NCBI GenBank assembly: GCA_020057405.1
Contig: JAGVFW010000004.1
Span: forward strand, 62,001 to 126,000
DNA length: 64,000 nt
Direction: 5' to 3'
Source: an archaeon
Lineage (GTDB): Archaea > Micrarchaeota > Micrarchaeia > Norongarragalinales > UBA97
The translations under genes and the position numbers were made by a program. Below the pieces are notes generated by a model, which was not told the origin of the DNA, searched no databases, and saw nothing but the letters and a program-made list of their open reading frames with translations. This document shows, piece by piece, positions 228-64,000 of the stretch (the first letter of the stretch is position 1; the number at the start of each line of letters is the position of its first letter).

Positions 228-1694
228 TTACTCAGTCCTCATGGTTACGCCCATCTTTCTGAGCGAATTCTCGATTGGGTCTTCGGGGACGCCGATAGTA
301 ACTTCGCAGTAAATCGAGAGTGCCTTTACGAGACCGCAGTTGGGGCCTTCGGGCGTCTCGTTCGGGTCAAGCCTGCCGAAGTGAGTGCCGTTAAGGTCAC
401 GGGCCTTGTAGTGCGGGTGCTTCTTCGCCAAAGGCGAAGTCACGCGGCGGATGAAGCTCATTGTAGAAATGTGGTTGTAGCGGTCTAGCGGCTGGCTGAT
501 GCCGGAGTGCCCGCCGACCCAGTTGCCGGTTGCCATTGAGTACTTGATGCGCTCGGTTAAAGCATCAGGCCTAACGACGGTGAACATGCTCATCTTGCGG
601 CCACGGACGTTAGCGCGCTCCATCTGGTATGCGACGTCTTTTACTAGGAACTGGAACGCGTAGCGGAAGAGCTCCTCCATGAGGGCTCCTGAAATCTTGA
701 GGCGCTTGTTGGCGTAGTGGTCCTTGTCGTCGGGGCTGCGCTTCTTGTAGGCGACCAAGATTGCGCGCTCGGCCATCCTTGCAATGAAATAGCCCTTTGC
801 GATGCGAGCGCCCTCGTCAATGCCGATGTGCGGCAGGAGGTAGCGGTCAAGGAGGAGTTCGGCGCGGCGCACTTGGTACTCCGTGGGCTGGCCGGGTGCG
901 GCGCGCTTGCCGATGACCTCTAGTGCCTCGCGCTTGGTCTTGACTTCGTCAAGCTCGAGGTTGAGGTTGATGTCGTTAAGCACCAGGGGATTGTCTGAGA
1001 AGGCTTCCGAGATTTTCTCCTGCGAGAGGCCGAGCGCCTTCATCGTGAGAGTTAGTTCAAGCGGCTTTGAGTAACTCGGCATAGTCACTCCGAGCTTGCC
1101 CTCTAAAGAGCGGTCTACGGTGCAGCGGCCGCGGAATCCCAAACGCGTGCTGAAGATTTTTGCCTGCACAAGCTTGCCGTCCTTCTCGCGCGAGACAAGA
1201 ATGCGGTTGGGCGCCAAATCTTCAAGAGTCATGAGCGACTTTTCAGTGCCGTTGACGACGAAATAGCCGCCAGGGTCAAGCGGGTCCTCGCCGAGGGCAA
1301 TGAGTTCCTCTTCGCTCTTGCCGGTCAGGTAGCAAAGCTTGCTTTTGACCATCACGGGAAGCTCGCCGACGAAGACTTCCTCGGTGCGCTTCTCGCTTCC
1401 GTGGATAACGGGGGTGATTTCAAGAAATAGCGGGGCAGTGTATGACAAGTCGCGCACGCGCGCCTCTGAAGGATAGCAAATGCGAGAGCTGCCGTCAACT
1501 TCAATGACGCGGGGCTTCTCAACCCGAATCTTGCCGAGCTTGAGGACGAGACCCTCGATTTGAGGTTCGATGTACTCTTGGGCGTCAACGACTTTTTGGA
1601 GGCCCTCTTCGACGAACTTGTCGTAGCTATCGAGGTATTGCTTTACCAGGGAATTGCCGCGCAGATAATCTGCAGTTAGCTCTTCGTAAACCAT
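228..1694 (-). CDS. rpoB2: DNA-directed RNA polymerase subunit B'' (Rpo2N)
   Basis: 488 aa, the usual length of the N-terminal half of a split archaeal RNAP B subunit. It contains the protrusion and lobe regions; the block around 'GGYFVVNGTEKSLM' and the C-terminal 'SPLAKKHPHYKARDLNGTHFG' stretch with 'DPNETPEGPNCGLVK' are signature beta-subunit segments. It is followed after 2 nt by rpoB' and preceded by rpoH with a 28-nt gap, so one transcription unit. The split at this point is typical of methanogen/halophile-type euryarchaea and some DPANN. No anomalies seen. Confidence 0.97.
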   Translation of the reverse strand: MVYEELTADYLRGNSLVKQYLDSYDKFVEEGLQKVVDAQEYIEPQIEGLVLKLGKIRVEKPRVIEVDGSSRICYPSEARVRDLSYTAPLFLEITPVIHGSEKRTEEVFVGELPVMVKSKLCYLTGKSEEELIALGEDPLDPGGYFVVNGTEKSLMTLEDLAPNRILVSREKDGKLVQAKIFSTRLGFRGRCTVDRSLEGKLGVTMPSYSKPLELTLTMKALGLSQEKISEAFSDNPLVLNDINLNLELDEVKTKREALEVIGKRAAPGQPTEYQVRRAELLLDRYLLPHIGIDEGARIAKGYFIARMAERAILVAYKKRSPDDKDHYANKRLKISGALMEELFRYAFQFLVKDVAYQMERANVRGRKMSMFTVVRPDALTERIKYSMATGNWVGGHSGISQPLDRYNHISTMSFIRRVTSPLAKKHPHYKARDLNGTHFGRLDPNETPEGPNCGLVKALSIYCEVTIGVPEDPIENSLRKMGVTMRTE

Positions 1695-1722
1695 GTTAAC
1701 CCAACCCTTTCCGAGAAGGAAA

Positions 1723-1965
1723 TTAATCCTCGGATTCTACGACGAGCCGATAATATGGCTCAATTTTTTCAGTCACTGGACTAAGACGCTCGATGCGCAC
1801 GACGTCACCGGCACGCGCGTTAAGTGTGTTCAATCCAGGGTCTGACGAACTGATAATTGGAAGGCTCTCGACCGGCTTCTTAAGACTGTCCAGTAGTTTT
1901 CGCACTTCTTCTTCGCTCGCAATAATGTGTTTAGGCACTAGAATGTGGTTAGGGGCTTCTTCCAT
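1723..1965 (-). CDS. rpoH: DNA-directed RNA polymerase subunit H (Rpo5)
   Basis: 80 aa, matching archaeal Rpo5, the counterpart of the C-terminal domain of eukaryotic RPB5. It has the typical 'HILVPKHIIASEEEV' start and the 'GDVVRIERLSP' to 'YYRLVV' end. Rpo5 forms part of the lower jaw of the polymerase. It is the first gene of the rpoH–rpoB''–rpoB' operon, with a TATA-like box about 60 nt upstream. Confidence 0.96.
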   Translation of the reverse strand: MEEAPNHILVPKHIIASEEEVRKLLDSLKKPVESLPIISSSDPGLNTLNARAGDVVRIERLSPVTEKIEPYYRLVVESED

Positions 1966-2024
1966 AGAAATATACCACGCAGAATACGCTTTGAGGACAG
2001 GACAGTATTTCTATGTCACACAAA

Positions 2025-2033
2025 GCTTATAAA
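2025..2033 (-). promoter_or_regulatory. TATA box of the RNA polymerase operon
   Basis: On the minus strand the sequence reads TTTATAAGC, an archaeal box A match. A start site about 25 nt downstream would give a leader of roughly 40 nt before the rpoH ATG at 1965. Confidence 0.55.
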
Positions 2034-2067
2034 CAGTTGCGTGCATAAGTCGGCCCTGCTTGAGGGC

Positions 2068-2358
2068 TCACAAGGCCAAGCCTACTGCCGAGGCAACTCC
2101 GCGCACGAAGAAAAAGTACGCAAACTCGCTTGGAAGCATTGCAGCGCCAATGAGAAAGTCGCCTCCTCCGTAGAAAAGCTTGTAGTTAATGTCAGACGGG
2201 TCGCTCATGCCTCCCCCGCCAATCGTCATTATTCCGCGGGCGATTGCGAAGAGGCCCACCCAACCGGTGAAGCCCTCGGCAATGCCGCCAACAGCAACGA
2301 GAGCCAGGCCTGCTATCAAGTCAGGCGCGCCGTAAAAAATGCTAGAAAAGCCAACCAT
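2068..2358 (-). CDS. Small hydrophobic membrane protein, unknown
   Basis: 96 aa, rich in Gly, Ala and Phe with three or four likely membrane segments (around residues 5–25, 28–45, 62–95) and a short Gly-rich loop. I do not recognise a family. The start is supported by a GGAGGG ribosome-binding site about 9 nt upstream of the ATG. It is divergent from the ferric-reductase-like gene at 2503 and shares a short intergenic region with a TATA-like GCTTAAAAG (2471–2479) readable on both strands. Confidence 0.6.
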   Translation of the reverse strand: MVGFSSIFYGAPDLIAGLALVAVGGIAEGFTGWVGLFAIARGIMTIGGGGMSDPSDINYKLFYGGGDFLIGAAMLPSEFAYFFFVRGVASAVGLAL

Positions 2359-2502
2359 AGGAAATTTCCCTCCGCCGGCATTACCCGGAATACAGGTTCA
2401 ACGGGTCGAACGCAAACGCGTTCCTCTCAGCCAAGAAAGCTCCCCACAAACGCAAGTAGTTGAGTGCAATTAGCTTAAAAGATTTGCCGCGCTAAACTAG
2501 TT

Positions 2503-3213
2503 ATGGAACTACTAAACGAAATCTGGGAAAAGAAGGCATTCATCGTAAAGGCCACGCTGGCAACCACCGCCTTCTGGCTAGTAGAGCTCGCTTTGCAGCT
2601 CTATGTGGTTGGCGCCGAATCGTTCGACGCTGCAGTAATCCGCTCGCTTGCCTTTGCAGGCGCAACCCTCATTGGCGCTTCCCTCATCATCGGTCCCGTC
2701 GCAGTCCTCATGCCACGCTGGAATTTCGTGCAATACCGCCGTGCAATCGGCGTGGGCGGCTTCGTACTCGCAACAGTCCACGGCCTCTTGGTTCTGACAA
2801 CTTACTTTGGCGGCAGCTTGATGAATTTGCCTTGGGGAGCCGACCCGTTCAAGATGCCAATCTTCTTCGGCGTCTTCGCCTCATGGCTCCTCTACCCGCT
2901 TTTCTTCACCTCAACGGACTGGGCAATGAGAAAACTAGGCAGCCACTGGAAGACAGTCCACCGCTTGGTTTACTTCGCGTTTCTGCTCATTGTGCTGCAC
3001 TTCATGGCCATCAATCCTGGCGCAATGGCGACCATACCTGGCTACGCGCTCCTCTTCGTCACCGCAGTTGCAATCCTCCTGCAGATGGCGGGTTTTTTCA
3101 AGCGCTGGCTCAAGGCCCGCACAATGATTGCGGGAGTATTCGCAGGAGCAGTCATCCTGGCGTGGCTGGCTGGCCTCTACTTGTATTACGTTGCCAACCC
3201 AATTGGCGGCTAA
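2503..3213 (+). CDS. Ferric-reductase-like transmembrane (haem b) protein, MsrQ/YedZ type
   Basis: 236 aa with about six membrane helices. Haem-ligand-type histidines are visible in 'ATVHGLL' and in 'WKTVHRLVYFAFLLIVLHF', the pattern of the ferric reductase-like transmembrane domain (MsrQ/YedZ). No NAD- or FAD-binding domain follows, so it is probably a membrane electron carrier whose partner is elsewhere. It likely has a leaderless transcript, since a TATA-like box lies about 25–30 nt before the ATG. It ends 1 nt from the convergent VIT/CCC1 gene. Confidence 0.75.
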   Translation: MELLNEIWEKKAFIVKATLATTAFWLVELALQLYVVGAESFDAAVIRSLAFAGATLIGASLIIGPVAVLMPRWNFVQYRRAIGVGGFVLATVHGLLVLTTYFGGSLMNLPWGADPFKMPIFFGVFASWLLYPLFFTSTDWAMRKLGSHWKTVHRLVYFAFLLIVLHFMAINPGAMATIPGYALLFVTAVAILLQMAGFFKRWLKARTMIAGVFAGAVILAWLAGLYLYYVANPIGG

Positions 3214-3214
3214 A

Positions 3215-3958
3215 TTAGAGCACTACGCCAGCAAGGGCGCCGATTGCGTAACCCGCCAAGGCGGCAAGCATGCCGATGCCAGTCATTTCAATGCCGCTTT
3301 TGACCCAATTGCCTACAGTAATTGTGGCCTTGTAGGCACCTGCGGCGAAAAGAACTAGTGCTGAGACGCCAACTGAAACCAGCATTGCTTGCGGCAACGT
3401 GATTACCGAAAAGGGCACCAAAAGAAATGGCGTTAGGGGGACGAAGGAACCGACGGTAGCTGAAATGCCGACCACTATCCCCTCGCTTACGGGCCTTACC
3501 GAATCCGGGTCGTCAAGTTTTAGCTCTTCGGCCATCATCACTTGGAGCCACACTTTCTTGTCTGAAGTGATTTTCCTCACAACTTCCTCGAGCTGATGGC
3601 CGCGAAAGCCCTTCTTCATGTAGATGAGCCGGATTTCCTCGCGCTCGACTTCAGGCAAGTCGCGGATTTCCTGCTTTTCGTGGTCAACCATCTTGTGGTA
3701 GTAATCCTGCTCAGCGCGGGCCGAAGTGTAGGCAACAGCAGCCATTGAAATGCTTTCGGCAAACGTCGCGGCGAGACCCGCGATGATGACAATTCGAATG
3801 TCGCTCGTACCGCTTGCGACACCAAGAATGACGCCCAAGACATTAACGAGGCCATCCTGGCCACCCAGAATAACTTGGCGCAAGAGGGAACCCTGCCGGT
3901 CGCTGCCGTGGAACTCAAGCTCTGCCAATGCCGCTTTTCGGACTTGTGAACGGTTCAC
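3215..3958 (-). CDS. VIT1/CCC1 family metal (Fe2+/Mn2+) transporter
   Basis: 247 aa. The N-terminal helix pair with 'ILGGQDGLVNVLGVILGVA' and 'AATFAESISMAAVAYTSARAE' is diagnostic of the VIT1/CCC1 family. It is followed by the charged cytoplasmic metal-binding region (about residues 80–140, 'HEKQEIRDLPEVEREEIRLIY') and three further C-terminal helices. These proteins move Fe2+ or Mn2+ out of the cytoplasm, driven by protons. The start is a GTG. It is convergent with a ferric-reductase-like gene, a possible but unproven iron link. Confidence 0.88.
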   Translation of the reverse strand: MNRSQVRKAALAELEFHGSDRQGSLLRQVILGGQDGLVNVLGVILGVASGTSDIRIVIIAGLAATFAESISMAAVAYTSARAEQDYYHKMVDHEKQEIRDLPEVEREEIRLIYMKKGFRGHQLEEVVRKITSDKKVWLQVMMAEELKLDDPDSVRPVSEGIVVGISATVGSFVPLTPFLLVPFSVITLPQAMLVSVGVSALVLFAAGAYKATITVGNWVKSGIEMTGIGMLAALAGYAIGALAGVVL

Positions 3959-52086: not shown

Positions 52087-53664
52087 ATGAAACCAGTTGA
52101 AACTTCGTTGCCCCAGGGGTCTGCAGAAACATCCTCGGCCCTAAAGTCAGTCGTTAAGGGCGCGGGACTCGTGCTCGTCGGCCTGGCAATCTCAAAGGCA
52201 ATGTCTTACTTCCTTCGCCTAGTCTTAGCCAGGCTGGGTCCCGAGCAGTACGGCCTCTTCACACTCGGCCTCACGGTTTTTGACTTTGCCACGTTTCTCA
52301 CTTCACTGAGCCTCCTTACTGCGGTGCTGCGTTACGCGCCCGAGTACCACGCGCTTGGCAACAACAAGCGGCTCTTAGGCGTTTTTTCCGACTCGGTCAA
52401 GCTCATAATCGCCGCAGGCATCGCCGGCTCTGCAATCCTCTACTTTTCTGCAGACGCGATTTCAACAATCGTCTTTCACCAGCCCGCTCTTGCGGGCATC
52501 CTGCGCATAATGTCGTTTGCAATAGTGTTCTACAACCTCAGCGGCGTAGTCACGTCGCTTGCTCGCGCGCTTAACCGCGTGGAGTATGAAGTCGCGCTAA
52601 AGATGGTTGTCGAAAACGCATTCAAGCTCGCCTTGGCCGCAACGGCGGTTGCCATGGGCCTTGGTCTCGCGGGCGTCACGGCTGGATTCTCAATAGCCAT
52701 TTTCCTCACCTGCCTCGTTTCATTCTACGCAGTTGAAAAGAAGGTCTACCCGTTTGTTGCAAAGGCAACTTCGGGCGCCCCCATCGAAAGCACGGCAAGG
52801 CAGCTTCTGACGTTCTCGCTTCCCCTCACCGCGGACGGCCTGGTGTGGATGGTGGCGGCGTCGGCTGACATCATAGTCATAGGCATTTTCCTGGGCGCAG
52901 CACAAGTGGGCATCTACGGCACGGCGCTCCCGACCGCAGCGTTCCTGACCGTGATACCGCTTGCGCTGCAGACTATGTTCAAGCCACTCACCGTCGGGCT
53001 GCTTGCCAAGAAGAAGACCGAGGACGTCAAGCGAGTTTACTACACGCTTAGCAAGTGGGTATTCGCGGCCAACCTCGCGGTTCTTTTGCCGGTCGTCGTT
53101 TTCGCCACCCAGATAATCGCTATTCTCTTCGGCCGCGACTACGGCCCGGCGGCCCTGCCACTCTCGATACTCTCGACTGGCTTTTTCTTAAGCCAGCTCT
53201 TGCGCATTGGCGAGGAAATCGTGGTCGCATACGACAGAACCGTGTTTTTGCTTGCAAACGCGGTCGTGGCAGTTGCGATTGCTGGGCTTGCCCAATTGTT
53301 GCTCGTCCCGCATTACGGGATTGCTGGAGCTGCAGTCGGCGCGGCGCTGACTTGGCTCGCCATGGGCTTCGGCATTTGGTATAAGGCAAGGAGGCTCACC
53401 GGGTTTTCGCCTTTTGCCGCATCCAAGTACCTGCACATCACTCTTTCGGGCGGGATTGCCGTCGGTGCGTCCTACTTGCTCGCCAAGTACTTCCTTGCCG
53501 CCGACGTCTTTGGCGCAATCGTGATACTCGTTTCATTCGTAGCGGTTTACGCAATTTGCCTGCGCGGCCTTAAAGTCGCCGACGAGTATGACATCGAGGT
53601 CGGCGAGGCCATCACGCGCAAGCTCGGCATTAAAATCAACGTCAGGAAAATCCTGACAGCGTGA
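52087..53664 (+). CDS. Polysaccharide/oligosaccharide flippase (Wzx/MVF type)
   Basis: 525 aa with about 14 membrane helices. The N-terminal block 'GAGLVLVGLAISKAMSYFLRLVLARLGPEQYGLFTLGLT' is typical of Wzx/RfbX-like lipid-linked glycan flippases. It would move a lipid-linked sugar unit to the outside. The TATA-like CCGTATTTAATCC region (about 52047–52059) lies 30 nt upstream. Its stop overlaps the next start (TGATG), opening the surface-modification operon. Confidence 0.9.
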   Translation: MKPVETSLPQGSAETSSALKSVVKGAGLVLVGLAISKAMSYFLRLVLARLGPEQYGLFTLGLTVFDFATFLTSLSLLTAVLRYAPEYHALGNNKRLLGVFSDSVKLIIAAGIAGSAILYFSADAISTIVFHQPALAGILRIMSFAIVFYNLSGVVTSLARALNRVEYEVALKMVVENAFKLALAATAVAMGLGLAGVTAGFSIAIFLTCLVSFYAVEKKVYPFVAKATSGAPIESTARQLLTFSLPLTADGLVWMVAASADIIVIGIFLGAAQVGIYGTALPTAAFLTVIPLALQTMFKPLTVGLLAKKKTEDVKRVYYTLSKWVFAANLAVLLPVVVFATQIIAILFGRDYGPAALPLSILSTGFFLSQLLRIGEEIVVAYDRTVFLLANAVVAVAIAGLAQLLLVPHYGIAGAAVGAALTWLAMGFGIWYKARRLTGFSPFAASKYLHITLSGGIAVGASYLLAKYFLAADVFGAIVILVSFVAVYAICLRGLKVADEYDIEVGEAITRKLGIKINVRKILTA

Positions 53665-54770
53665 TGATAGTGGCTAACGCTATTCCGGAAAACCTGCGGC
53701 CTGACCGCGTCTCCCTAGTTGCAATCGACTTTCTTAACCGCTCAAGCAGCCTTTTTTTCAACTGCCTCCTTGACGGCCACCCCCAAATCATTCACGGCTT
53801 TGCGCAAAACTATCCTGCCGGGGCAAGCTCGCGGCAAGAAGCGGCCAGGGCCGCTTTTGAAAATCTTGCGTCTAGCATGATTTGGCATTACTCCCCCCGC
53901 GACTTTCCTTTCTCGTTTAGGGAGTTCGAACCGCTTTTCAACCAGTACGCCGACGAATTCGGCTTCTCGCAAAAAAGCGCGTTTGTCGCGGCGCACTACG
54001 CCTTGGCAAAACTGCTTGGAAAAGACTTAAAGAAAATCAAGTGGATTGCGTACCACCCGCACGGCCACTCAAATATCGGCAGTGTAATGCGCGCAAAGCG
54101 GGACTTTCCGAACCAAAAACTGATTCTCACGGTTCGCGACCCGCGCGCGGCCATTTGGGGAAACCTGCGGGCGGACAAAAAAGTGCCCCTCTACGAACTT
54201 TTGCCGCAGGCTCCGGCCTACTGGTGGGCTTACAAACGCATTTTTGCAAGGAACGAAATTAGGGTCGTGAGGCACGAGGACATTCACACTAATTATCCAC
54301 GCGAGCGGGTAGCCTTGACGGAATTTTTGCAGATTCACGACGAGGCTAGCCTTGACCAAGCCACGCTATTCGGCAAGCCCTGGGATGGGAGTGCGAAAAA
54401 CGCGGTCCTCTCGAACACTGGCCGCAAGTCAAGCAGGCCCGACCCGGCTTTTGTCACAGACGACTGGAAGCAGGGGCTCTCGCGTTTTGACTTGTTCTTG
54501 ATACAGGCGGCTCTTGCGGGTTTCATGCGCGAGTTTGGTTACTTGCCGTACAGCAAGCCCGACGGGAAGTGCAAGCAAGTCGAGCTTGACTATGGCGCGC
54601 TGTGGAATGAATTCACTGCAAAAACTGTTCCTGCCTCGCTTCGTCCCGCCCTTGGCGGCGTCGCCTCAACACCTTTTATAAGCGTGGTTCCAAAAACAAT
54701 TATTCACGCCATGATAGCGGCGCGGACGGCGCGCAATTACCTGGCGCTTTACTCCGCAGTCACAAGCTGA
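53664..54770 (+). CDS. Sulfotransferase-fold protein; candidate phosphoramidate transferase
   Basis: 368 aa. The 5'-phosphate-binding loop region 'DFLNRSSSLFFNCLLDGHPQI' and the 3'-phosphate-binding 'ILTVRDPRAAIWGNL' are the two PAPS-type nucleotide motifs of sulfotransferases. In this operon the likely donor is not PAPS but 3'-phospho-CDP-amidate, which has the same 3'-phosphate, 5'-diphosphate layout. The second role is inference. Starts by ATG overlapping the flippase stop. Confidence 0.72.
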   Translation: MIVANAIPENLRPDRVSLVAIDFLNRSSSLFFNCLLDGHPQIIHGFAQNYPAGASSRQEAARAAFENLASSMIWHYSPRDFPFSFREFEPLFNQYADEFGFSQKSAFVAAHYALAKLLGKDLKKIKWIAYHPHGHSNIGSVMRAKRDFPNQKLILTVRDPRAAIWGNLRADKKVPLYELLPQAPAYWWAYKRIFARNEIRVVRHEDIHTNYPRERVALTEFLQIHDEASLDQATLFGKPWDGSAKNAVLSNTGRKSSRPDPAFVTDDWKQGLSRFDLFLIQAALAGFMREFGYLPYSKPDGKCKQVELDYGALWNEFTAKTVPASLRPALGGVASTPFISVVPKTIIHAMIAARTARNYLALYSAVTS

Positions 54771-54805
54771 TGGCGGCGTAGGGGAAACACGGAAGTTGGG
54801 ATTTA

Positions 54806-55588
54806 ATGAGCGAAAAACTTTACTCAAGCGAGTGGGACTACACGTCTCAGGCCAAGTTCTACGACAGGCGGCCCAACTACGCCCCAAAGGCGATTGAGCG
54901 CATTTGCAAGCACGTTGGCGCAAGCACTCACGGCAACTACGCTGTTGCAGACATCGGCGCCGGCACGGGTAACCTCACGCTCTTGCTTGCCAACAAAGCG
55001 GCTAAAGTAATTGCAATCGAGCCCAACGACGCCATGCGCGAGATAGGCAGGGGCAAGACAAAGGCGATGCCCAATGTCGAGTGGCGGGTGGGCAGCGGCG
55101 AGAAAACCGGATTGCCTTCAGGCGCGGTCGATTTGGCCGCTTTTGGCTCTTCGTTTAACACAACCGACAGGGACGCGTCACTGCGCGAGTCGCACCGCAT
55201 TCTCAAGCCGGAAGGCTTCTTCACCTGCATGTGGAACAACCGCGACCTGCAGGATGGGCCGCAAAAGCGCGTCGAGGAAATCATCCGCGAGTTCGTTCCA
55301 GACTACAGCCACGGCACGCGGCGCGAGCAGCAGGCCGACGTCATCATCGCAAGCCGCCTCTTCAACAACCTCTACTACCTGGAAGAACCACAGGCGGTCA
55401 AGATGAGTGTCGAGAATTTTGTCGACGGCTGGCGCTCGGTCAAGAACAAGTACTGGGACCCGGCGACCCCAGAGGGCAAGGAACTGCTTTCAAAGATTAT
55501 CGCCAGGATAGAGTCGGAGTTTGCGGACACCCCGGAACTGCAAATCACTTACGTCACCCGCGCGTGGACTGCAAAAAGAGAGGACTGA
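54806..55588 (+). CDS. SAM-dependent class I methyltransferase
   Basis: 260 aa. Rossmann motif I 'VADIGAGTGNLTLLLA' near residue 50 and motif 'LRESHRILKPEGFF' downstream (post-I). It belongs to the UbiE/CoQ-like general group. In Campylobacter two methyltransferases sit beside the phosphoramidate genes and methylate the phosphoramidate oxygen; by context this could do the same. Substrate otherwise unknown. Confidence 0.85.
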   Translation: MSEKLYSSEWDYTSQAKFYDRRPNYAPKAIERICKHVGASTHGNYAVADIGAGTGNLTLLLANKAAKVIAIEPNDAMREIGRGKTKAMPNVEWRVGSGEKTGLPSGAVDLAAFGSSFNTTDRDASLRESHRILKPEGFFTCMWNNRDLQDGPQKRVEEIIREFVPDYSHGTRREQQADVIIASRLFNNLYYLEEPQAVKMSVENFVDGWRSVKNKYWDPATPEGKELLSKIIARIESEFADTPELQITYVTRAWTAKRED

Positions 55589-55596
55589 ACTTAGCC

Positions 55597-56388
55597 ATGG
55601 CCGGAGAGCGAAGCGAACTACAAGCGCTCGCCGGTGCCCTGCAAACGGCAGGCGATGCGATTCTAAAAGTGCGTTCGCGGGCATTCTCACTAAAGCGCGA
55701 CAAGAGTCCCGTCACGGCAGCCGACCTAGCCTCGTCAAAAATTCTTGAGCGCGAGCTGTCGAAGACGGGCATTCCGGTATGCTCGGAAGAGCGCCGCGTG
55801 AGGGCAGCCAAGGAAATGTGGTTCGTCGACCCGCTTGACGGCACGAAGAACTACATCGAAGGCAACCCCGGCTACTGCGTGATGGCAGGCCTTCTAAGGA
55901 ATGGGAAAATAGTCATTGCCGGAATTTACGTTCCAAGCACCCGCGAGCTTTACTACGCCGAGCTAGGCAAGGGCGCGTTCCTGCTTAAAGGCGGCAAGCG
56001 GACGCGCTTGAAGGCAAGCGGCAGGACGCGTCCGTCTCTTTTACGCGTAATCAAAAGCCGCCACCACCACACTGCAACCGACGAGGCCTTCATCAAGCGC
56101 GCTGGCCTGGGCCGCCAAATCGGGATTGGTAGCGCGGGCCTCAAGCTTTGCGCAATCGCGTCAGGCAAGGCGGAGCTTTACGTCAATTTCGACGGCCTTT
56201 GGGCCTGGGACATTGCCGGACCGCAGCTTGTGCTTGAGGAAGCGGGCGGCAGCGTCACCGACGCGACAGGCCACGCCCTGCGCTACCCGCCGGCTGGAAT
56301 GCGCTTTGCCGGAGGAATCATCGCGTTAAACAAGGCAAACGCCGAAATACTATCGCTTGCTAAAAAGCATTGGAAGGAAATTAAATGA
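55597..56388 (+). CDS. Inositol monophosphatase family, CysQ-like bisphosphate nucleotidase
   Basis: 263 aa. Metal-binding motifs: 'VTAADLASS', 'CSEERR', 'WFVDPLDGTKNYIEG' (DPLDGT) and 'WAWDIAGPQLVLEEAGG' (WD near the C-terminus), the IMPase/CysQ set. CysQ removes the 3'-phosphate of PAP. Here it could clear the 3',5'-bisphosphate of cytidine (pCp) left by a transferase using 3'-phospho-CDP-amidate. It starts 8 nt after the methyltransferase and overlaps the next gene (ATGA). Confidence 0.85.
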   Translation: MAGERSELQALAGALQTAGDAILKVRSRAFSLKRDKSPVTAADLASSKILERELSKTGIPVCSEERRVRAAKEMWFVDPLDGTKNYIEGNPGYCVMAGLLRNGKIVIAGIYVPSTRELYYAELGKGAFLLKGGKRTRLKASGRTRPSLLRVIKSRHHHTATDEAFIKRAGLGRQIGIGSAGLKLCAIASGKAELYVNFDGLWAWDIAGPQLVLEEAGGSVTDATGHALRYPPAGMRFAGGIIALNKANAEILSLAKKHWKEIK

Positions 56389-56900
56389 AGGGACTCCTAG
56401 TCTGGATTACAGGGCTCGCTGGATCCGGCAAGACTACGCTTGCGGCTATGGTTGAAAGCGGCCTTCGGGCCAAGGGCGTGCGCACGGTGCACGTCGACGG
56501 CGACGCTGTCCGCGAGATTTTTGGAAACGAGCTCGGCTTCCACCGGGAAGACCGGCTGAAAAACGCCTGGCGCATCGCCCGGCTCTGCAGTTTCCTCACA
56601 AGCCAGGGGTTTGCAGTCGTCTGCTCGACAGTGTCCCTCTTCCACGAAATCCACGGCTACAACCGCAAAACAAATTCAGGCTACCTTGAAGTCCACCTGG
56701 CAGTCAGCGCGGCCGAGCTTACCCGAAGGAACAAGAAGGGATTGTACGGCAAGGGCGGAAAGCAGGTTGTCGGCAGGGACATTGAACCCGAGTTTCCAAA
56801 GAAGCCCGACATGATGTTGGCAAACGACAACAAAACCCAGCTTGGGCAAAACGCCGGGGCAATAATTTCGAAAGCCGCGAAAATGGCTGCGGGCAAGTGA
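56385..56900 (+). CDS. Cytidine diphosphoramidate kinase (Cj1415-like; APS-kinase family)
   Basis: 171 aa, the same size as C. jejuni Cj1415. P-loop 'GLAGSGKTTLAAM' and 'VDGDAVREIFGNELGFHREDRLKNAWRIARLC' are APS-kinase-like, but the usual APS-kinase 'ISPF/ISPY' region is replaced by 'VCSTVSLFHEIHGYNR', the pattern I associate with the CDP-amidate kinase branch. It would add a 3'-phosphate to cytidine diphosphoramidate. Plain APS kinase is the alternative, but no ATP sulfurylase is present. Overlaps the next gene by GTGA. Confidence 0.8.
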   Translation: MKGLLVWITGLAGSGKTTLAAMVESGLRAKGVRTVHVDGDAVREIFGNELGFHREDRLKNAWRIARLCSFLTSQGFAVVCSTVSLFHEIHGYNRKTNSGYLEVHLAVSAAELTRRNKKGLYGKGGKQVVGRDIEPEFPKKPDMMLANDNKTQLGQNAGAIISKAAKMAAGK

Positions 56901-59278
56901 GTCGAATGGTGCCGTTCAAGTTCTCTACAAAAGCCGAAACGCTCAAGCGGCTCGCGCCCCTGCTGAAAGTCGGCGCGGTGCTGCCGCAACACCACTTCAC
57001 GGTTGGCGAATGGAAGAAAAACAAGCCTGCGATTGCGGCCAAAACGCTAAAAGAATTGGCGGACGCCAAAAAACTCGCAGTGCGCTCAAGCGCAGTTAAT
57101 GAAGACTCGCACTCAAGCTCGATGGCAGGCAACTTCACAAGCTGCCTCAATGTGCAGCCCAATGGGGCGAGCCTTGAAAAAGCGGTTGAAACCGTAATCG
57201 CAAGCTATGGAAACGGCGGGCACGCAAGCGACGCCAACCAGGTCCTCGTGCAGCCGCAGATTGAGAACCTGGAAGTGAGCGGCGTCGCCTTCACCTGCGA
57301 CCTTGACACGGGCGCACCTTACTACATCGTCAACTACGACGACATTTCCGGCAAGACCGACGTCGTAACGTCAGGCACTAGCAACAAGGTCAAGATGTTC
57401 GTCTACAGCAAGTTTTACGGCCAAAAACCAACGAGCCCCAACCTCGCGCTCATCATCTCCGCAGTGCGAGAGCTTGAGAAGGCAACCGGAAGCGAAGCGA
57501 TTGACATTGAGTTCGCCGTGTCAAAAGGCAAGTTTTTTGTTTTGCAGGTGCGGCCGATTACTACCGCTGGCAGGAAGCGCAACTATTCGCAGGAAGCGCT
57601 AAAGCAGGAACTCGACAACATCAAACGCTTCATTCGCGAGAACAAAAGGTCGTTCCCCAACTTGTTCGGCAGTCGAAACGCCTACGGCATCATGCCCGAC
57701 TGGAACCCGGCGGAAATAGTTGGCGTCAACCCCAAGCCCCTGGCGCTCTCGATGTACAAGGAGATTATCACGGACTACATCTGGCCCCTAAGCAGAAAAG
57801 AAGTTGGGTACAAGGACGTCGGCTACCACCCGGGCCTCTGCTCGCTCTCCGGCAAGCCCTACATCGACATTCGCCTCAGCTTAAGCACGTTCCTTGCCGC
57901 AGACATTCCGGATGCGCTTGCGCAAAAGCTCGTAGACTTCCAGCTAAACAAGCTGCAGCTCAACCCCATGCTTCACGACAAAATCGAGTTCCAGATTGCC
58001 CACACTGCCTACAGCCTCAACTTCAAGCAATCGGCGGAGGAACTGCTCAAAAACGGCTTTTCAAAAGAGGAAGTCGAAATTCTACGAAAGTGCCTCCTAA
58101 AGCTTACGAACAACATCCTTGCAGAGCGGGTCACAAGCGTCGGCAGCCAGATGGCACTCGTTTCGCACCTCGATGCCAAGCGCAGGAAAATCAGGCTCTC
58201 CGACATTCCGATTGAAGTGAAAATAGCGCAACTCGTGCACGACTGCAAGTACTACGGCACCCTGCCGTTTTCCAAGCTCGCTCGCTTTGCATTCATCGCA
58301 AGCATTTTGATGCGCTCGCTTCGCGAGCGGGGAGTGATTACGCAGGCGCAGTACGACGGGTTCTTCAGCTCAATAGAGACGGTCGCGACCGAATTCGTCC
58401 GCGACATTGGCGAGATGAAGGCAGGCAAAATGACGCGAGCTGAATTCTTGAACCGCTACGGCCACCTGCGGCCGGGCACTTACGACATCACGTCACTCAC
58501 TTACGCTGAGAACCTTGAGAACTACATTGACCTCAAGCACTACGACTCTGGCAAGACACACGAGAAGTTCGCTTTCGACGCGGCGACCATAAGGCGCATT
58601 GACGGCGAGCTAAAGGCGCAAGGCGTCGAGGCAAACGCGCACGAGCTGCTTAAGTTCGTAGAGGAAGCGACAATCGGCCGCGAGAAGTCGAAACTTGAGT
58701 TCACCAAGAACCTTAGCCTCGCGCTTGACTACTGCACGCAATACCTCCACAGGTACGGAATCGACAGGGAGGACGCGGCGTTTCTGGAAATCGGCGACTT
58801 GCTTGCCGCAAGCCACGACAGCAAGCTCTCAACCGCTAAAGGAGACCTCGAGGCGAAGATTGGGAGCCACAAGGCAAGCTATGAGATGACGAAGGCAGTG
58901 CGCCTCCCGCCACTCATTTTCGACGAGAAGAATGTCGAGTACTTCCACTACCGCGATGACATGCCGAACTTCGTTTCCGACAAGCGGGTTAGCGCAGAAG
59001 CAGCCTACGTTGCCGCAAACACCACCGACGGCGCGTTGTTGGACGGAAAGATTGCACTCATCGAAAACGCCGACCCGGGCTTTGACTGGATATTCAGCCA
59101 CAACATCAAGGGGCTCGTCACGAAATTCGGCGGGGCCAACTCGCACATGGCAATCCGGTCCGCAGAGTTCGGCCTCCCTGCCGCAATCGGCTGCGGGCAA
59201 GTGCTTTTCGCCTACCTCAAGGACGCACGCAAGATAGAAATAGACTGCAGCGTCAAGCAAATAAGGAAAATACAATGA
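56897..59278 (+). CDS. L-glutamine kinase (Cj1418-like, PEP-synthase-related)
   Basis: 793 aa. N-terminal ATP-binding domain with 'LAVRSSAVNEDSHSSSMAG' and 'GAPYYIVNYDDISGKTD', a central domain with 'MPDWNPAEIVGVNPKPLALSMYKE', and a C-terminal swivelling domain with catalytic His in 'GGANSHMAIRSAEFGLPAAIGCG'. PEP/pyruvate barrel is absent, as in Cj1418, which phosphorylates the side-chain amide of L-glutamine. Start by GTG overlapping the kinase stop (an ATG lies three codons on). The first committed enzyme of phosphoramidate synthesis. Confidence 0.85.
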   Translation: MSRMVPFKFSTKAETLKRLAPLLKVGAVLPQHHFTVGEWKKNKPAIAAKTLKELADAKKLAVRSSAVNEDSHSSSMAGNFTSCLNVQPNGASLEKAVETVIASYGNGGHASDANQVLVQPQIENLEVSGVAFTCDLDTGAPYYIVNYDDISGKTDVVTSGTSNKVKMFVYSKFYGQKPTSPNLALIISAVRELEKATGSEAIDIEFAVSKGKFFVLQVRPITTAGRKRNYSQEALKQELDNIKRFIRENKRSFPNLFGSRNAYGIMPDWNPAEIVGVNPKPLALSMYKEIITDYIWPLSRKEVGYKDVGYHPGLCSLSGKPYIDIRLSLSTFLAADIPDALAQKLVDFQLNKLQLNPMLHDKIEFQIAHTAYSLNFKQSAEELLKNGFSKEEVEILRKCLLKLTNNILAERVTSVGSQMALVSHLDAKRRKIRLSDIPIEVKIAQLVHDCKYYGTLPFSKLARFAFIASILMRSLRERGVITQAQYDGFFSSIETVATEFVRDIGEMKAGKMTRAEFLNRYGHLRPGTYDITSLTYAENLENYIDLKHYDSGKTHEKFAFDAATIRRIDGELKAQGVEANAHELLKFVEEATIGREKSKLEFTKNLSLALDYCTQYLHRYGIDREDAAFLEIGDLLAASHDSKLSTAKGDLEAKIGSHKASYEMTKAVRLPPLIFDEKNVEYFHYRDDMPNFVSDKRVSAEAAYVAANTTDGALLDGKIALIENADPGFDWIFSHNIKGLVTKFGGANSHMAIRSAEFGLPAAIGCGQVLFAYLKDARKIEIDCSVKQIRKIQ

Positions 59279-59919
59279 AAATGAAAATCGGCCTCTCGAT
59301 GCGGATGGTGCGCTGCCAAAAGCCCGGCCACACTACGGGGAAGGGCGAAGTGCGCCACGCCATTTCGCAGGATTGGATGACGCTTTTGCAAAAGCTGGGC
59401 TTTACTCCCGTTTTGTTGCCGTCTGACCTCAAGGACATTCCCCAAATTGACGGCGTGATTCTCACAAACGGCAACAACGTCGACCCGCGCGCCTACGGCG
59501 GGAAGCCCCTTGACGACGTTTTTGCCGAGCGCGATGCTTTTGAGGCAAGGCTCGCCAAGATGGCACTCGGCAAGAAAATCCCGATTCTTGGCGCGTGCCG
59601 GGGCAGCCAGATGCTAAACGTGTTTTTCGGCGGAAAGCTAAAGCAACACGTGGCGGGCCACAGCGGCACGACGCACGCCATTGCACTGCGGAACGGCAAG
59701 CGCGTGACAGTCAACTCTTACCACGACCACGGCATTGCCGCCGACGGGCTTGGCAATTACCTAGAACCGCTTGCGTTTAGCGACGACGGCTTCATTGAGG
59801 CGTTCGGCCACAAAAGCGTACCCGCCATGGGCATCATGTGGCACCCCGAGCGCGGGCCGACTGCGTTTAACGACAGTCTAGTCAAGAGATTTTTCACTCG
59901 CCGAGGAGAACTCATTTGA
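59275..59919 (+). CDS. Gamma-glutamyl-CDP-amidate hydrolase (Cj1417-like, class I amidotransferase)
   Basis: 214 aa, peptidase C26/class I glutamine amidotransferase fold. Nucleophile Cys in 'LGACRGSQMLNVFFGG' and His/Glu in 'GIMWHPERGP'. In C. jejuni the related protein releases glutamate from gamma-glutamyl-CDP-amidate to give cytidine diphosphoramidate. A general gamma-glutamyl hydrolase is the alternative, but the operon fixes the role well. Overlaps neighbours on both sides (ATGA, TTGA). Confidence 0.83.
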   Translation: MKMKIGLSMRMVRCQKPGHTTGKGEVRHAISQDWMTLLQKLGFTPVLLPSDLKDIPQIDGVILTNGNNVDPRAYGGKPLDDVFAERDAFEARLAKMALGKKIPILGACRGSQMLNVFFGGKLKQHVAGHSGTTHAIALRNGKRVTVNSYHDHGIAADGLGNYLEPLAFSDDGFIEAFGHKSVPAMGIMWHPERGPTAFNDSLVKRFFTRRGELI

Positions 59920-60713
59920 AGGCAATCATCCTTGCCGCAGGCAGGGGCACGCGCTTGGGCGATTACGCAAAAGGAATGCCGAAAGCCATGCTCGATTTTG
60001 CAGGCAAGCCCCTGCTTGCAACGCAGCTGAAGGTGCTCCGCGCTGCAGGCGTCAATGACATTACGGTCGTCACGGGTTTTGCCTCCAAAAAAATTGCCTT
60101 TGATGGCGTAAATTACGTCCATAACCCTGATTTTGCGACAACTAACATGGTGGAATCACTCATCGTTGCGCGCGATGAGCTAAAGGCCGGGGCACTCGTG
60201 TGCTATGGCGACATAATCTACGAGCCTAGGGTGCTAAAGGCAGTGATGAAGGCAAAGGCCGACGCCGTAGTTGCAGTTGACTACGACTATCTCGACTATT
60301 GGAAGGCAAGGCTTGGGGACGAATGGGAAAATGACACTGAATCCCTGCGGGTCGTAAACGGCAAAATTACCGAACTAGGCGGGTCAAACCCGTCGGCCAA
60401 GGAGCGGCAATGCCGTTACGTCGGGCTCCTCAAGTTCTCTGCAAACGGGGCAAAGTTGTTGCTTGAGACGTACTACGCTGAAAAGCGGCGCCATTGGGAA
60501 TCCGAGAAGCCTTGGCTTAACTCTCCGTCATTCAAGCAGGCATTCATGACCGACCTGCTAAACGCGTTTATCGCGCGGGGCAATGAAGTCAGGCCAGTGG
60601 AGATAGAGCGCGGGTGGATGGAGTTTGACACTGCTGATGACTATGAAAAGGCAAGCGCGTGGCTGGCTGATGGCAGCATCAAGCGCTTTTTCGACCCACG
60701 GACGCTGGCGTGA
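59916..60713 (+). CDS. CTP:phosphoglutamine cytidylyltransferase (Cj1416-like)
   Basis: 265 aa from a TTG that overlaps the previous stop (TTGA). Nucleotidyltransferase signature 'AIILAAGRGTRLGDYAKGMPKAML' at the start, 'VCYGDIIYE' for the metal-binding Asp, and 'RGWMEFDTADDYEKA' near the end. In Campylobacter the homologous enzyme joins CMP from CTP to gamma-glutamyl phosphate amide. A sugar-1-phosphate nucleotidyltransferase is the alternative by sequence alone; context favours the former. Confidence 0.8.
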   Translation: MKAIILAAGRGTRLGDYAKGMPKAMLDFAGKPLLATQLKVLRAAGVNDITVVTGFASKKIAFDGVNYVHNPDFATTNMVESLIVARDELKAGALVCYGDIIYEPRVLKAVMKAKADAVVAVDYDYLDYWKARLGDEWENDTESLRVVNGKITELGGSNPSAKERQCRYVGLLKFSANGAKLLLETYYAEKRRHWESEKPWLNSPSFKQAFMTDLLNAFIARGNEVRPVEIERGWMEFDTADDYEKASAWLADGSIKRFFDPRTLA

Positions 60714-60727
60714 TAGGCTGGACGGGG

Positions 60728-60738
60728 TTTAAAAGGAT
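60728..60738 (+). promoter_or_regulatory. TATA box upstream of the carbamoyltransferase genes
   Basis: GGTTTAAAAGG lies about 22–30 nt before the ATG at 60759 in a 45-nt gap, so the carbamoyltransferases may have their own leaderless transcript. Confidence 0.45.
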
Positions 60739-60758
60739 TTTCTGGCCCAACTAAGTTT

Positions 60759-62489
60759 ATGAACATACTCGGCGTCTACCCCGTTTGGGGCCACGACACC
60801 TGCGCGGCAATAATCAAGGACGGCAGGCTAGTCGCGGCTGCGGAGGAAGAGCGCTTCACCCGCCACAAGCACGCCCTGCCGCGGCCCCATAGCATGACGA
60901 ACATGATTGACCAGTCCGTCGAGCCCTCGTTTCACTCAATAAAATTCTGCCTCGACTACGCGGGCCTCACCATGGACGACATTGACGCAATTGCAGTGCC
61001 TTGGAACCCCGACCTCATCGTCAAGCAAAACTTTACCAGCGGCTCAAGGCTCATTCCAGAACTCGCCGCAAAGGCGCTCATGCTGCCCGCGGGACGGCTT
61101 TGGCGCTACAAGAAACTCTTCCGCAAGGGCGCGTCACTAAAGCAGGCGCTCTACTACGACTTTTTCATGGAACCATCGCTCTCGGGATATTCGAGCCTTC
61201 CTGAAATAAGGTATTACGAGCACCACCGCGCCCACGCCGCGACCGCTTTCTACGCGTCAGGATTCGAGAACGCGGCGGTCGTGACTGCAGATGGAGCGGG
61301 AGAGTCAAACGCAACAGTCGCCTGGCACGGGAAGGGAAACACGCTAACTAAACTCCGCGAGAAAATGAAGGACCAGTCAATAGGCAATTTCTACACGCTC
61401 GCCACCGAATACCTCAACATGGGCTACGGTGCCGAAGGAAAGACAATGGGCCTCTCGCCCTACGGCAAGCCCAACGCCAAAATCAGGGAAAAACTCCTCC
61501 GCAGGCTTAACCCGGAAACGGGCGACTGGTACGAAGGCAAGCTTGAGACCCTAAACGAGGCTGAAATGGGCTTTCCAGCGCGCACCAACCAGGCGGTTAC
61601 TTCGCCGCCCTATAGCGACCTTGCCTACGAGGCAGAGGAGATTCTTGAGGCGGCGATGGTGAAAGTGGCCAAGTGGACGGTGGAGGCTACGGGAGAAAGC
61701 AAGGTCTGCGTGGCAGGCGGCGTCGGGTTAAGCTGCACGACAAACTCGCGCATCATCAACGCGGGCTTTGCAGACGACATATTCATCTTCCCGGCAGCAA
61801 ACGACGGCGGCACCGCAATTGGGGCGGCCCTTGAATGCGCCGCCGAAATGGGGGAGAAAGTCAAGTTCAAATTCGAGCACGCTTACTGGGGCCCCGAGTA
61901 CTCTGACGCGCAAATTGAAGTTGCGCTAAAGCAGAGCAACGCGAGGTTTGAAGAAACAACTGACCCCGGCGGGGCAGCTGCAGACCTGATTGCAAAAGGA
62001 AAAGTAATCGGCTGGTTCCAAGGCAGGATGGAAATCGGCCCCCGCGCGCTTGGGAACCGAAGCATCCTGGCAGACCCGACGCGCACAGACGCGTGGGAAA
62101 AAGTGAATGAAATCAAGCTGCGGGAAAGGTGGAGGCCGCTCGCTCCAAGCATGCTTTACGAGGCCAAAGACGAGTACCTGGAAAACGCGCGCGACTCACC
62201 CTTCATGATACTCGCATTCCAAGTACCGAAAGAAAAACACAAGGAAATCCCGGCGGTCGTACACGTCGACGGCAGCACCCGACCGCAAACCGTCAAGAAG
62301 ACGACCAACGAAAAATACTGGAACCTAATCAAAAAACTCGAGCAAAACAACGGCACGCCAGTCACACTGAACACCAGCTTCAATGTCGGGCCGGAACCAA
62401 TCGTCTGCACGCCAAAAGACGCGCTGCGAACGTTCTTCACATCCCAGCTTGACGCAATCGTAATCGGGAACTACGTGCTAGAAAAGTGA
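60759..62489 (+). CDS. Carbamoyltransferase (NodU/CmcH family), copy 1
   Basis: 576 aa. N-terminal ASKHA-type (Kae1-like) domain: 'HDTCAAIIKDGRLVAAAEEERFTRHKH', 'YYEHHRAHAATAFYASGF', 'ADGAGE'. C-terminal domain: 'WFQGRMEIGPRALGNRSILADP'. This family moves carbamoyl from carbamoyl phosphate through carbamoyl-AMP to sugars, antibiotics or lipid-linked glycans. A surface glycan is likely by context. It is tandem with a paralogue, sharing near-identical DNA in the 3' third. Confidence 0.92.
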   Translation: MNILGVYPVWGHDTCAAIIKDGRLVAAAEEERFTRHKHALPRPHSMTNMIDQSVEPSFHSIKFCLDYAGLTMDDIDAIAVPWNPDLIVKQNFTSGSRLIPELAAKALMLPAGRLWRYKKLFRKGASLKQALYYDFFMEPSLSGYSSLPEIRYYEHHRAHAATAFYASGFENAAVVTADGAGESNATVAWHGKGNTLTKLREKMKDQSIGNFYTLATEYLNMGYGAEGKTMGLSPYGKPNAKIREKLLRRLNPETGDWYEGKLETLNEAEMGFPARTNQAVTSPPYSDLAYEAEEILEAAMVKVAKWTVEATGESKVCVAGGVGLSCTTNSRIINAGFADDIFIFPAANDGGTAIGAALECAAEMGEKVKFKFEHAYWGPEYSDAQIEVALKQSNARFEETTDPGGAAADLIAKGKVIGWFQGRMEIGPRALGNRSILADPTRTDAWEKVNEIKLRERWRPLAPSMLYEAKDEYLENARDSPFMILAFQVPKEKHKEIPAVVHVDGSTRPQTVKKTTNEKYWNLIKKLEQNNGTPVTLNTSFNVGPEPIVCTPKDALRTFFTSQLDAIVIGNYVLEK

Positions 62490-62496
62490 TTTGAAA

Positions 62497-64000
62497 ATGG
62501 CTAACGTACTCGGCATTTGCGTTGCTTCGGAAGTCCAGGAACGGCATGATACTGGCGCCGCTCTAGTCAAGGACGGCAAGCTCATTGCGGCGGTTGAGGA
62601 AGAGCGCTTCACGCGCAAGAAGCACGAAACGGCCCCGCCCGTGCTCTCGGTAAAGTACTGCCTTGCGGCGGGTGGCCTGACGATGGATGACATCGACGGC
62701 ATTGCAATCATGTGGCGCGACGTGCAGGCGCCTTATGCGGATGTGCTAAACGCAGTTCTGCGCTACAACAAGGCCAAAAACGTGCTTTTGCGCAAGCTCG
62801 GCACTGACTTGAAGAAACTTGCTGGCGGCTACCGCGACCCGCAGCTTGACTTCCTGCGCGAATACAGCCGCTCGCCTCCAGTCACTTACTACGAACACCA
62901 CTTGACGCACGCCGCGACTGCTTTCTACCCGTCGGGCTTCAAAGACGCGGCGATAGTGACTGTCGACGGCACAGGCGAGTGGAACTCGACAGTCGCTTGG
63001 AAGGGCGGCGCCGACGGCATCACAAAACTAAAGGAAAAGCCCAACTCGCAGTCGCTCGGATTCTTTTACTCGGCAGTGACAAAGCACATCCGCATGGGAA
63101 GCCAGGCCGAAGGAAAGACCATGGGCCTGGCGCCGTACGGCAAGCACGACCCCGACATCTACTCGCGGCTTACCAACTTTATCAACCCGAACAAGGGCGA
63201 ATGGTACGAGGGCGCGACGACACGCGACATCAACCAGGCCGACCTCGGCTTTCCCCAACGGCTTGATTCTGAAAAAGCCACTAGCGAAAAGTACGCCAAC
63301 CTCGCCTACAACGCGCAGGAAATCCTAGAAGAGGCGCTCCTAAAAGTTTCCAAGTGGACGGTTGACGAAACCGGTTGCAAAAACATCTGCCTCTCTGGCG
63401 GAGTTGCGCTAAACTGCACGACGAACTCGCGCATCATCAACGCGGGCTTTGCGGATGACATTTTCATCTTCCCGGCAGCAAACGACGGCGGCACCGCAAT
63501 TGGGGCGGCGCTCCAGCTTGCTGAAGAACTTGGAGACAAGACGGCATTCCGGATGGAAAGCCCATACTGGGGCCCCGAATTCACCGACGAGCAAATTGAG
63601 GAAGCACTCAAGGAAAGCGGCGCGACCTTTGAAGAGACTGGCGACCCAAGTGGTTCTGCGGCGGACCTTATTGCAAAAGGCAAAATCATTTGCTGGTTCC
63701 AAGGCAGGATGGAAATCGGCCCCCGCGCGCTTGGGAACCGCAGCATCCTGGCAGACCCGACGCGCACAGACGTGTGGGAGCGCGTAAACGAGGTGAAGCT
63801 GCGCGAACAATGGCGGCCGCTCGCTCCAAGCATGCTCTACGAGGCCAAAGACGAGTACCTAGAAAACGCGCGCGACTCACCCTTCATGATACTCGCATTC
63901 CAAGTGCCAAAAAACAAGCACAAGGAAATCCCGGCGGTCGTACACGTCGACGGCAGCACCCGACCGCAAACCGTCAAGAAGACGACCAACGAAAAATACT
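62497..64000 (+). CDS. Carbamoyltransferase (NodU/CmcH family), copy 2 (runs off the edge)
   Basis: 501 codons visible, start ATG at 62497, 7 nt after copy 1. Same domain order: 'RHDTGAALVKDGKLIAAVEEERFTRKKH', 'YYEHHLTHAATAFYPSGF', 'VDGTGE', 'WFQGRMEIGPRALGNRSILADP'. N-terminal halves of the two copies differ clearly, while the 3' part is almost identical at the DNA level, ending in an 82-base identical run at the window edge. Substrate unknown; two sites or two positions of one glycan are possible. Confidence 0.92.
   Translation, partial: MANVLGICVASEVQERHDTGAALVKDGKLIAAVEEERFTRKKHETAPPVLSVKYCLAAGGLTMDDIDGIAIMWRDVQAPYADVLNAVLRYNKAKNVLLRKLGTDLKKLAGGYRDPQLDFLREYSRSPPVTYYEHHLTHAATAFYPSGFKDAAIVTVDGTGEWNSTVAWKGGADGITKLKEKPNSQSLGFFYSAVTKHIRMGSQAEGKTMGLAPYGKHDPDIYSRLTNFINPNKGEWYEGATTRDINQADLGFPQRLDSEKATSEKYANLAYNAQEILEEALLKVSKWTVDETGCKNICLSGGVALNCTTNSRIINAGFADDIFIFPAANDGGTAIGAALQLAEELGDKTAFRMESPYWGPEFTDEQIEEALKESGATFEETGDPSGSAADLIAKGKIICWFQGRMEIGPRALGNRSILADPTRTDVWERVNEVKLREQWRPLAPSMLYEAKDEYLENARDSPFMILAFQVPKNKHKEIPAVVHVDGSTRPQTVKKTTNEKY

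Follow-up and report, generated by a model that had tools for sequence, protein, structure and literature searches.

The window analysed here is a 64,000-nucleotide stretch of an archaeal contig (JAGVFW010000004.1), and its positions 52087–64000 are occupied by a single same-strand run of genes in which neighbours overlap by 4 bases or are separated by short gaps. In order, the run encodes a flippase, a sulfotransferase-fold protein (ST, a name used for the product of 53661–54770 and for its family), a methyltransferase, a CysQ-like phosphatase, an adenosine 5'-phosphosulfate (APS)-kinase-like protein, a phosphoenolpyruvate (PEP)-synthase-like protein, a class I amidotransferase-like protein, a cytidylyltransferase and two NodU-type carbamoyltransferases. 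It is proposed from sequence comparisons that the operon makes a phosphoramidate donor, that the ST transfers the group to a glycan and that the CysQ-like enzyme clears cytidine 3',5'-bisphosphate (pCp), a reading to which we assign a probability of roughly 0.72. The first-pass annotation had rightly placed the ST and the CysQ-like gene in one operon (53664–56388) but left out the methyltransferase gene (54806–55588) lying between them. The genes central to the proposal are the following.

53661–54770, forward strand: ST, predicted (methyl)phosphoramidate transferase (Pfam Sulfotransfer_3, E 9e-4; family profile against human tyrosylprotein sulfotransferase 1 (TPST1), E 1e-18); start at GTG 53661 (369 aa) or ATG 53664 (368 aa)
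54806–55588, forward strand: class I S-adenosylmethionine methyltransferase of the phosphoramidate-locus type, in the Cj1419/Cj1420 position (family match; common to related loci)
55597–56388, forward strand: CysQ-like 3',5'-bisphosphate nucleotidase of the inositol monophosphatase (IMPase) family, predicted pCp 3'-phosphatase (TIGR01331, E 5e-44)
56385–56900, forward strand: APS-kinase-like protein, putative cytidine diphosphate (CDP)-amidate kinase of the Cj1415 type (NF004041, over cut-off; tree split and motif change)
56897–59278, forward strand: L-glutamine kinase, Cj1418 type (NF004508, 888 bits, cut-off 501)
59275–59919, forward strand: gamma-glutamyl-CDP-amidate hydrolase, Cj1417 type (best NCBIfam match NF045546 at E 2e-32, under its cut-off)
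59916–60713, forward strand: phosphoglutamine cytidylyltransferase, Cj1416 type (NTP_transf_3, E 4e-19)

The homologues of the glutamine kinase, the hydrolase, the cytidylyltransferase and the CDP-amidate kinase, encoded together, make up the complete gene set (Cj1415–Cj1418) for the O-methyl phosphoramidate (MeOPN) donor of Campylobacter jejuni. The PEP-synthase-like protein at 56897–59278 is a glutamine kinase of the Cj1418 type, and the C. jejuni CDP-amidate kinase is reportedly the subject of Taylor and Raushel 2018. Scanning genomes with an alignment of glutamine kinases yielded 80 loci, spread over archaea and many phyla of bacteria, out of at least 538 relatives, and a cytidylyltransferase homologue was present in 76 of them. 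A donor with a 3'-phosphate and a 5'-diphosphate, as ascribed earlier to the genes downstream of the ST, is the product expected here by homology to the C. jejuni pathway, of which 3'-phospho-5'-cytidine diphosphoramidate is an intermediate (PMC6429109).

The window ST is divergent, and on its own it matches Sulfotransfer_3 below the curated cut-off. Its family was gathered by iterated searches over the open reading frames (ORFs) of related loci and aligned as 22 members from phosphoramidate loci, 15 of which match Sulfotransfer_3 singly. The profile of these 22 proteins aligned with TPST1 over a stretch that includes the 5'-phosphosulfate loop and, after it, the 3'-phosphate motif, and the predicted sulfotransferase fold is well above chance. 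The loop NRSSSLF..LLDGHP near the N terminus of the ST aligns with RSGTTLMRAMLDAHP of TPST1. Three elements of the protein could be located.

53736–53783, forward strand, ST residues 26–41: 5'-phosphate loop and the following helix, NRSSSLFFNCLLDGHP (family alignment and TPST1 alignment)
54060–54062, forward strand: His134, at the position that the catalytic His holds in sulfotransferases, with a probable catalytic role (kept in 19 of 22 relatives)
54135–54161, forward strand: 3'-phosphate motif RDPRAAIWG, beginning with R159 (invariant, 22/22)

His134 lies between the two loops, 25 residues before R159. Both nucleotide-phosphate loops claimed in the first-pass annotation are thus recognisable, with a reservation at position 167 that is weighed below. 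The closest relatives of the window ST sit in phosphoramidate loci, and no relatives of it were detectable in plasmids by tblastn.

The kinase of the operon was placed in a tree in which 70 kinases, the window's included, came from phosphoramidate loci and 10 were sulfate-type enzymes (E. coli CysC, NodQ, Sat-CysC and others). On one side of a branch with support 100/99 stood 67 of the 70, among them those of the window and of the Campylobacterales, with the sulfate APS kinases opposite; the three divergent kinases of L058, L062 and L109 fell near the sulfate side. Sulfate APS kinases have the motif FTG..PYE at their adenine site. The kinases of phosphoramidate loci mostly have (V/I)(V/M/A)G instead, and the window kinase reads VVGRDIEPE. 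In six loci (Acidobacteriota/proteobacterial) a kinase of the same type is fused to the glutamine kinase. Because of its clade, the loss of the motif and these fusions, the window kinase is best read as a CDP-amidate kinase. Its identification as a sulfate APS kinase was considered and rejected on the replaced FTG..PYE and the tree split. On plasmids of Halocatena (L169) and Burkholderia glumae (L170), cysC adjoins an annotated sulfotransferase gene, and both kinases cluster with the sulfate APS kinases, on long branches.

The capacity of the host for making 3'-phosphoadenosine 5'-phosphosulfate (PAPS) was examined by family searches of its genome (1.22 Mb, 0.27 % contamination). No ATP sulfurylase (PF01747), PAPS-reductase/CysD-type domain (PF01507) or CysD was detected in this genome, which is 90.6 % complete, and the lack of a visible ATP sulfurylase noted earlier for the window thus extends to the genome as assembled. 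The window ST is the sole Sulfotransfer_3 match of the genome. An ST adjoins a phosphoramidate locus in 23 genomes, the window genome counted and many of them incomplete; 8 of these show neither Sat nor CysD, Sat is present in 5 and CysD in several. The glutamine kinase scored above cut-off in the window's own genome only, out of 60 genomes searched, and the operon was therefore probably acquired. These data bear on the alternative that the ST is a genuine sulfotransferase that draws on PAPS taken up or scavenged from a host cell and is a mere neighbour of the phosphoramidate genes. PAPS enzymes have this fold, one related locus (L081) has a Sat–APS kinase fusion plus two ST genes, and small archaea may depend on partners. 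This explanation is nevertheless very improbable, given that no ATP sulfurylase was detected in the genome, that the operon kinase belongs to the phosphoramidate clade and not to the sulfate clade, and that the ST follows the 3'-kinase across phyla, also in genomes without either ATP sulfurylase.

Of the 80 loci, 55 have the 3'-kinase, and 28 of these also hold an ST gene; among the other 25 loci an ST gene was present in 2 (Fisher p 1.7e-4), namely L070, on a 7.6-kb contig, and L106, a Helicobacter locus cut short upstream. A wider locus set gave 30/66 with the kinase versus 1/29 without (p 2.8e-5); with Campylobacterales loci added and either an ST or a DUF2972-type transferase counted, the figures were 38/66 versus 2/29 (p 2.8e-6). 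The methyltransferase gene accompanied the 3'-kinase in 35/55 loci and occurred in 1/25 without it (p 3e-7; 36/80 overall); it is also found in most Campylobacterales loci. The nearest archaeal loci, L030, L031 and L032, hold the ST, the 3'-kinase, the methyltransferase and the donor genes together, and L030 also has CysQ. In Lachnospiraceae, where the ST family occurs in 3 and the glutamine kinase in 13 of 348 genomes, the two share a contig in 2 of those 3 (p 0.004).

A different explanation is that another protein, encoded elsewhere or by a neighbour, is the transferase and that the ST is a regulator or else binds the donor non-catalytically. Since about half of the 3'-kinase loci lack a nearby ST, other transferases probably exist, and sulfatase-superfamily proteins occur in some ST-less loci (L058, L061). 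For the window itself this is improbable: the family keeps His134 and R159 as listed above, the stretch from flippase to carbamoyltransferase has no further transferase-type gene without an assignment, and the known C. jejuni transferases are a remotely related family. No hidden STs were found among the genes adjoining ST-less 3'-kinase loci, which encode an aminotransferase, sulfatase-superfamily proteins, a peptidase and unassigned proteins. In L058 (6352–8175) and L061 (5201–6958), sulfatase-superfamily proteins of the alkaline-phosphatase type directly adjoin the 3'-kinase and no ST is present there; these are possible alternative phosphoramidate transferases.

Most of the related loci without a 3'-kinase (L033, L034, L047, L055, L064, L075 and others) carry a second cytidylyltransferase-like domain, fused N-terminally to the glutamine kinase in ORFs of about 1000 aa. 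These fusions suggest a second pathway branch with a donor lacking the 3'-phosphate. No glutamine-kinase relatives were found in viral contigs in the scan. MT837632 (L029), listed as a phage scaffold of faecal origin, encodes a glutamine kinase–hydrolase fusion at 652–3687 with neighbours that look chromosomal (MurC-like, phosphoribosyl-pyrophosphate-synthetase-like), and its phage label is doubtful.

The Campylobacter proteins Cj1421 and Cj1422 are MeOPN transferases by genetic evidence (PMC3907429), with a conserved N terminus of 244 residues and a C-terminal PF11186 (DUF2972) domain of unknown function (PMC5808241). DUF2972-type proteins were present in the Campylobacterales loci examined. 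Their C-terminal region, taken from before PF11186, aligned with three ST profiles over 86–96 columns (hhalign scores 29.9, 36.6 and 38.0). The maxima of the column-shuffled controls (150 per profile, 450 in total) were 18.3, 26.6 and 17.7, reversed controls scored 11–18, and unrelated families of the same loci gave E values of 0.1 or more. The motif RDPIS(x3)S (RDPxxxxxS), with a glycine-rich loop upstream, is common to both types, and Cj1421/Cj1422-type proteins were over-represented among the sub-threshold matches of the ST profile. The window ST has no match to PF11186, the similarity being a remote one between profiles that falls ahead of that domain and adjoins it. The comparison with Cj1421/Cj1422 proposed earlier thus pointed to remote homology, above all 450 shuffled controls, rather than to a proven common fold, and proteins of this type are probably remote kin of the ST family. 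In L156 (13273–15625, Campylobacterales) an ST-family gene stands beside a DUF2972-type gene, next to a fused double methyltransferase, and this pair is a natural link between both transferase types. No paper linking MeOPN transfer to sulfotransferases was found among those searched.

For the CysQ-like phosphatase of the window, TIGR01331 is the best NCBIfam model, and the protein clusters with the CysQs of L030 and L037 (support 95/92). CysQ-like genes occur near 11 of the 80 related loci, where the family is several-fold enriched over a background of 1–2 per Mb (rough Poisson p 5e-7 to 3e-4), and in several loci (L036, L091, L106, L108, L154) they lie between or beside core genes. A separate clade of phosphoramidate-locus CysQs was looked for and rejected, the tree failing to set them apart from the sulfate-pathway CysQ of E. 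coli and Sinorhizobium. CysQ-type enzymes are broad. A plausible role for the window enzyme, and the natural reading, is that it takes the 3'-phosphate off pCp. It is rather unlikely, but a good deal less so than the two explanations discussed above, that the ST transfers phosphoramidate while the CysQ-like enzyme acts on another substrate (inositol or sugar phosphates, adenosine 3',5'-bisphosphate (pAp) or a phosphorylated acceptor). The small number of loci with CysQ, the missing separation in the tree and a tie with the 3'-kinase that is not significant speak for such a substrate; the enrichment near the loci, the position among core genes and a second, separate IMPase in the host genome, which serves housekeeping, speak for pCp.

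In the proposed pathway, the glutamine kinase, the cytidylyltransferase and the hydrolase would form CDP-amidate, and the APS-kinase-like protein would add the 3'-phosphate to give 3'-phospho-CDP-amidate, both steps being C. jejuni chemistry assigned by homology. The ST would grip this donor by its two loops, whose counterparts in other proteins bind PAPS at its 5'- and 3'-phosphates, and pass the phosphoramidate, perhaps already O-methylated, to a sugar hydroxyl of a surface or lipid-linked glycan, with His134 as the likely base. Methylation by the adjacent methyltransferase could come before or after transfer. The by-product would be pCp, from which the CysQ-like phosphatase may strip the 3'-phosphate, allowing CMP to be reused and preventing inhibition by the product; the flippase would presumably export the glycan.

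The most likely function of the ST is to take (methyl)phosphoramidate off 3'-phospho-CDP-amidate and place it on a glycan. This role is well supported because the donor set is complete, the kinase is of the CDP-amidate type, no PAPS route was detected, the ST tracks the 3'-kinase across phyla and Cj1421/Cj1422 appear remotely homologous. Of the earlier suggestion that the fold was reused for phosphoramidate transfer and that the phosphatase acts on pCp, the first part gained comparative evidence, whereas the second stays at the level of plausibility, the link of CysQ with the kinase having p 0.25.

Certain observations weigh against the proposal as a whole. In the window ST, the 3'-phosphate-binding Ser expected 8 residues past R159 is Gly167, where 16 of 22 relatives have Ser. 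About half of the 3'-kinase loci contain no ST inside approximately 10 kb. When relatedness was corrected for, 9 independent pairs were available, of which 4.5 went the same way and 0 the opposite way for ST and DUF2972 types together (median p 0.06), and the association of the ST alone with the 3'-kinase had p 0.375; the direction is consistent and the power low, so the link after correction is suggestive. At 90.6 % completeness, the missing ATP sulfurylase is not absolute. The window CysQ (150.8 bits) is under the CysQ equivalog cut-off of 228.8, and the CysQ–3'-kinase association was not significant (15/66 with the kinase versus 3/29 without).

The remaining genes of the run flank the operon core.

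52087–53664, forward strand: polysaccharide flippase, MOP/Wzx type (Pfam Polysacc_synt, E 1.5e-21), overlapping the start of the ST; first clear gene of the cluster
60759–62489, forward strand: NodU-type carbamoyltransferase (Carbam_trans_C, E 3e-68), probably of the same glycan cluster as the phosphoramidate genes
62491–64000, forward strand: second NodU-type carbamoyltransferase, continuing beyond the window end, with its stop about 170 bases further (64170; position 2171 in L161)

The C-terminal halves of the tandem carbamoyltransferases (60759–62489 and 62491–64170) are nearly identical, which is a recent duplication or conversion beside the phosphoramidate genes.

In 2019, P-N glycan chemistry was reported from Campylobacter only (PMC6429109). 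If the proposal is true, this chemistry extends to archaea and many bacterial phyla, the 3'-phosphate on the C. jejuni donor is explained by a transferase fold built to grip it, the uncharacterised Cj1421/Cj1422 transferase type acquires a fold and an active site, and genes annotated as APS kinase and sulfotransferase do not in every case point to sulfation. We lean, with somewhat less confidence than in the reading of the operon itself, towards the broader view that the sulfotransferase fold comprises a whole class of phosphoramidate transferases using 3'-phospho-CDP-amidate (archaeal and bacterial STs together with the DUF2972 proteins Cj1421/Cj1422), that phosphoramidate decoration of glycans occurs widely among bacteria and archaea, and that a PAPS-like logic of 3'-kinase, ST-fold transferase and 3'-phosphatase evolved for a non-sulfur group.

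Compared with tyrosylprotein sulfotransferases and Sulfotransfer_3 proteins, the ST is alike in the 5' loop RSG/RSS followed by LLDxHP, the Arg of the 3' motif and the RxEDL region, all in the same order. It differs in its very low pairwise similarity, in the expected donor, 3'-phospho-CDP-amidate and not PAPS, and in belonging to a genome in which no PAPS synthesis was detected. The CysQ-like enzyme belongs to the same family as the 3'(2'),5'-bisphosphate nucleotidases and has a 3'-nucleotide kinase as its neighbour, an arrangement also seen for CysQ and NodQ in S. meliloti, but it scores below the equivalog cut-off and its predicted substrate is pCp, not pAp. With Cj1421 and Cj1422 the ST shares the predicted reaction and the place in the pathway, and the glycine-rich loop and RDPIS(x3)S motif in the C-terminal region of that type align with the ST family; the Campylobacter proteins begin with an additional domain of about 244 residues (PMC5808241), and the ST is without PF11186. 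The closest known system is the MeOPN capsule pathway of C. jejuni, Cj1415–Cj1422. Homologues of Cj1418, Cj1417, Cj1416 and Cj1415 and a Cj1419/Cj1420-type methyltransferase are all present and adjacent in the archaeon, in which a recognisable sulfotransferase-family gene replaces the PF11186-bearing transferases Cj1421/Cj1422, the operon includes a CysQ-like phosphatase, and the cluster adds two carbamoyltransferases and a flippase.

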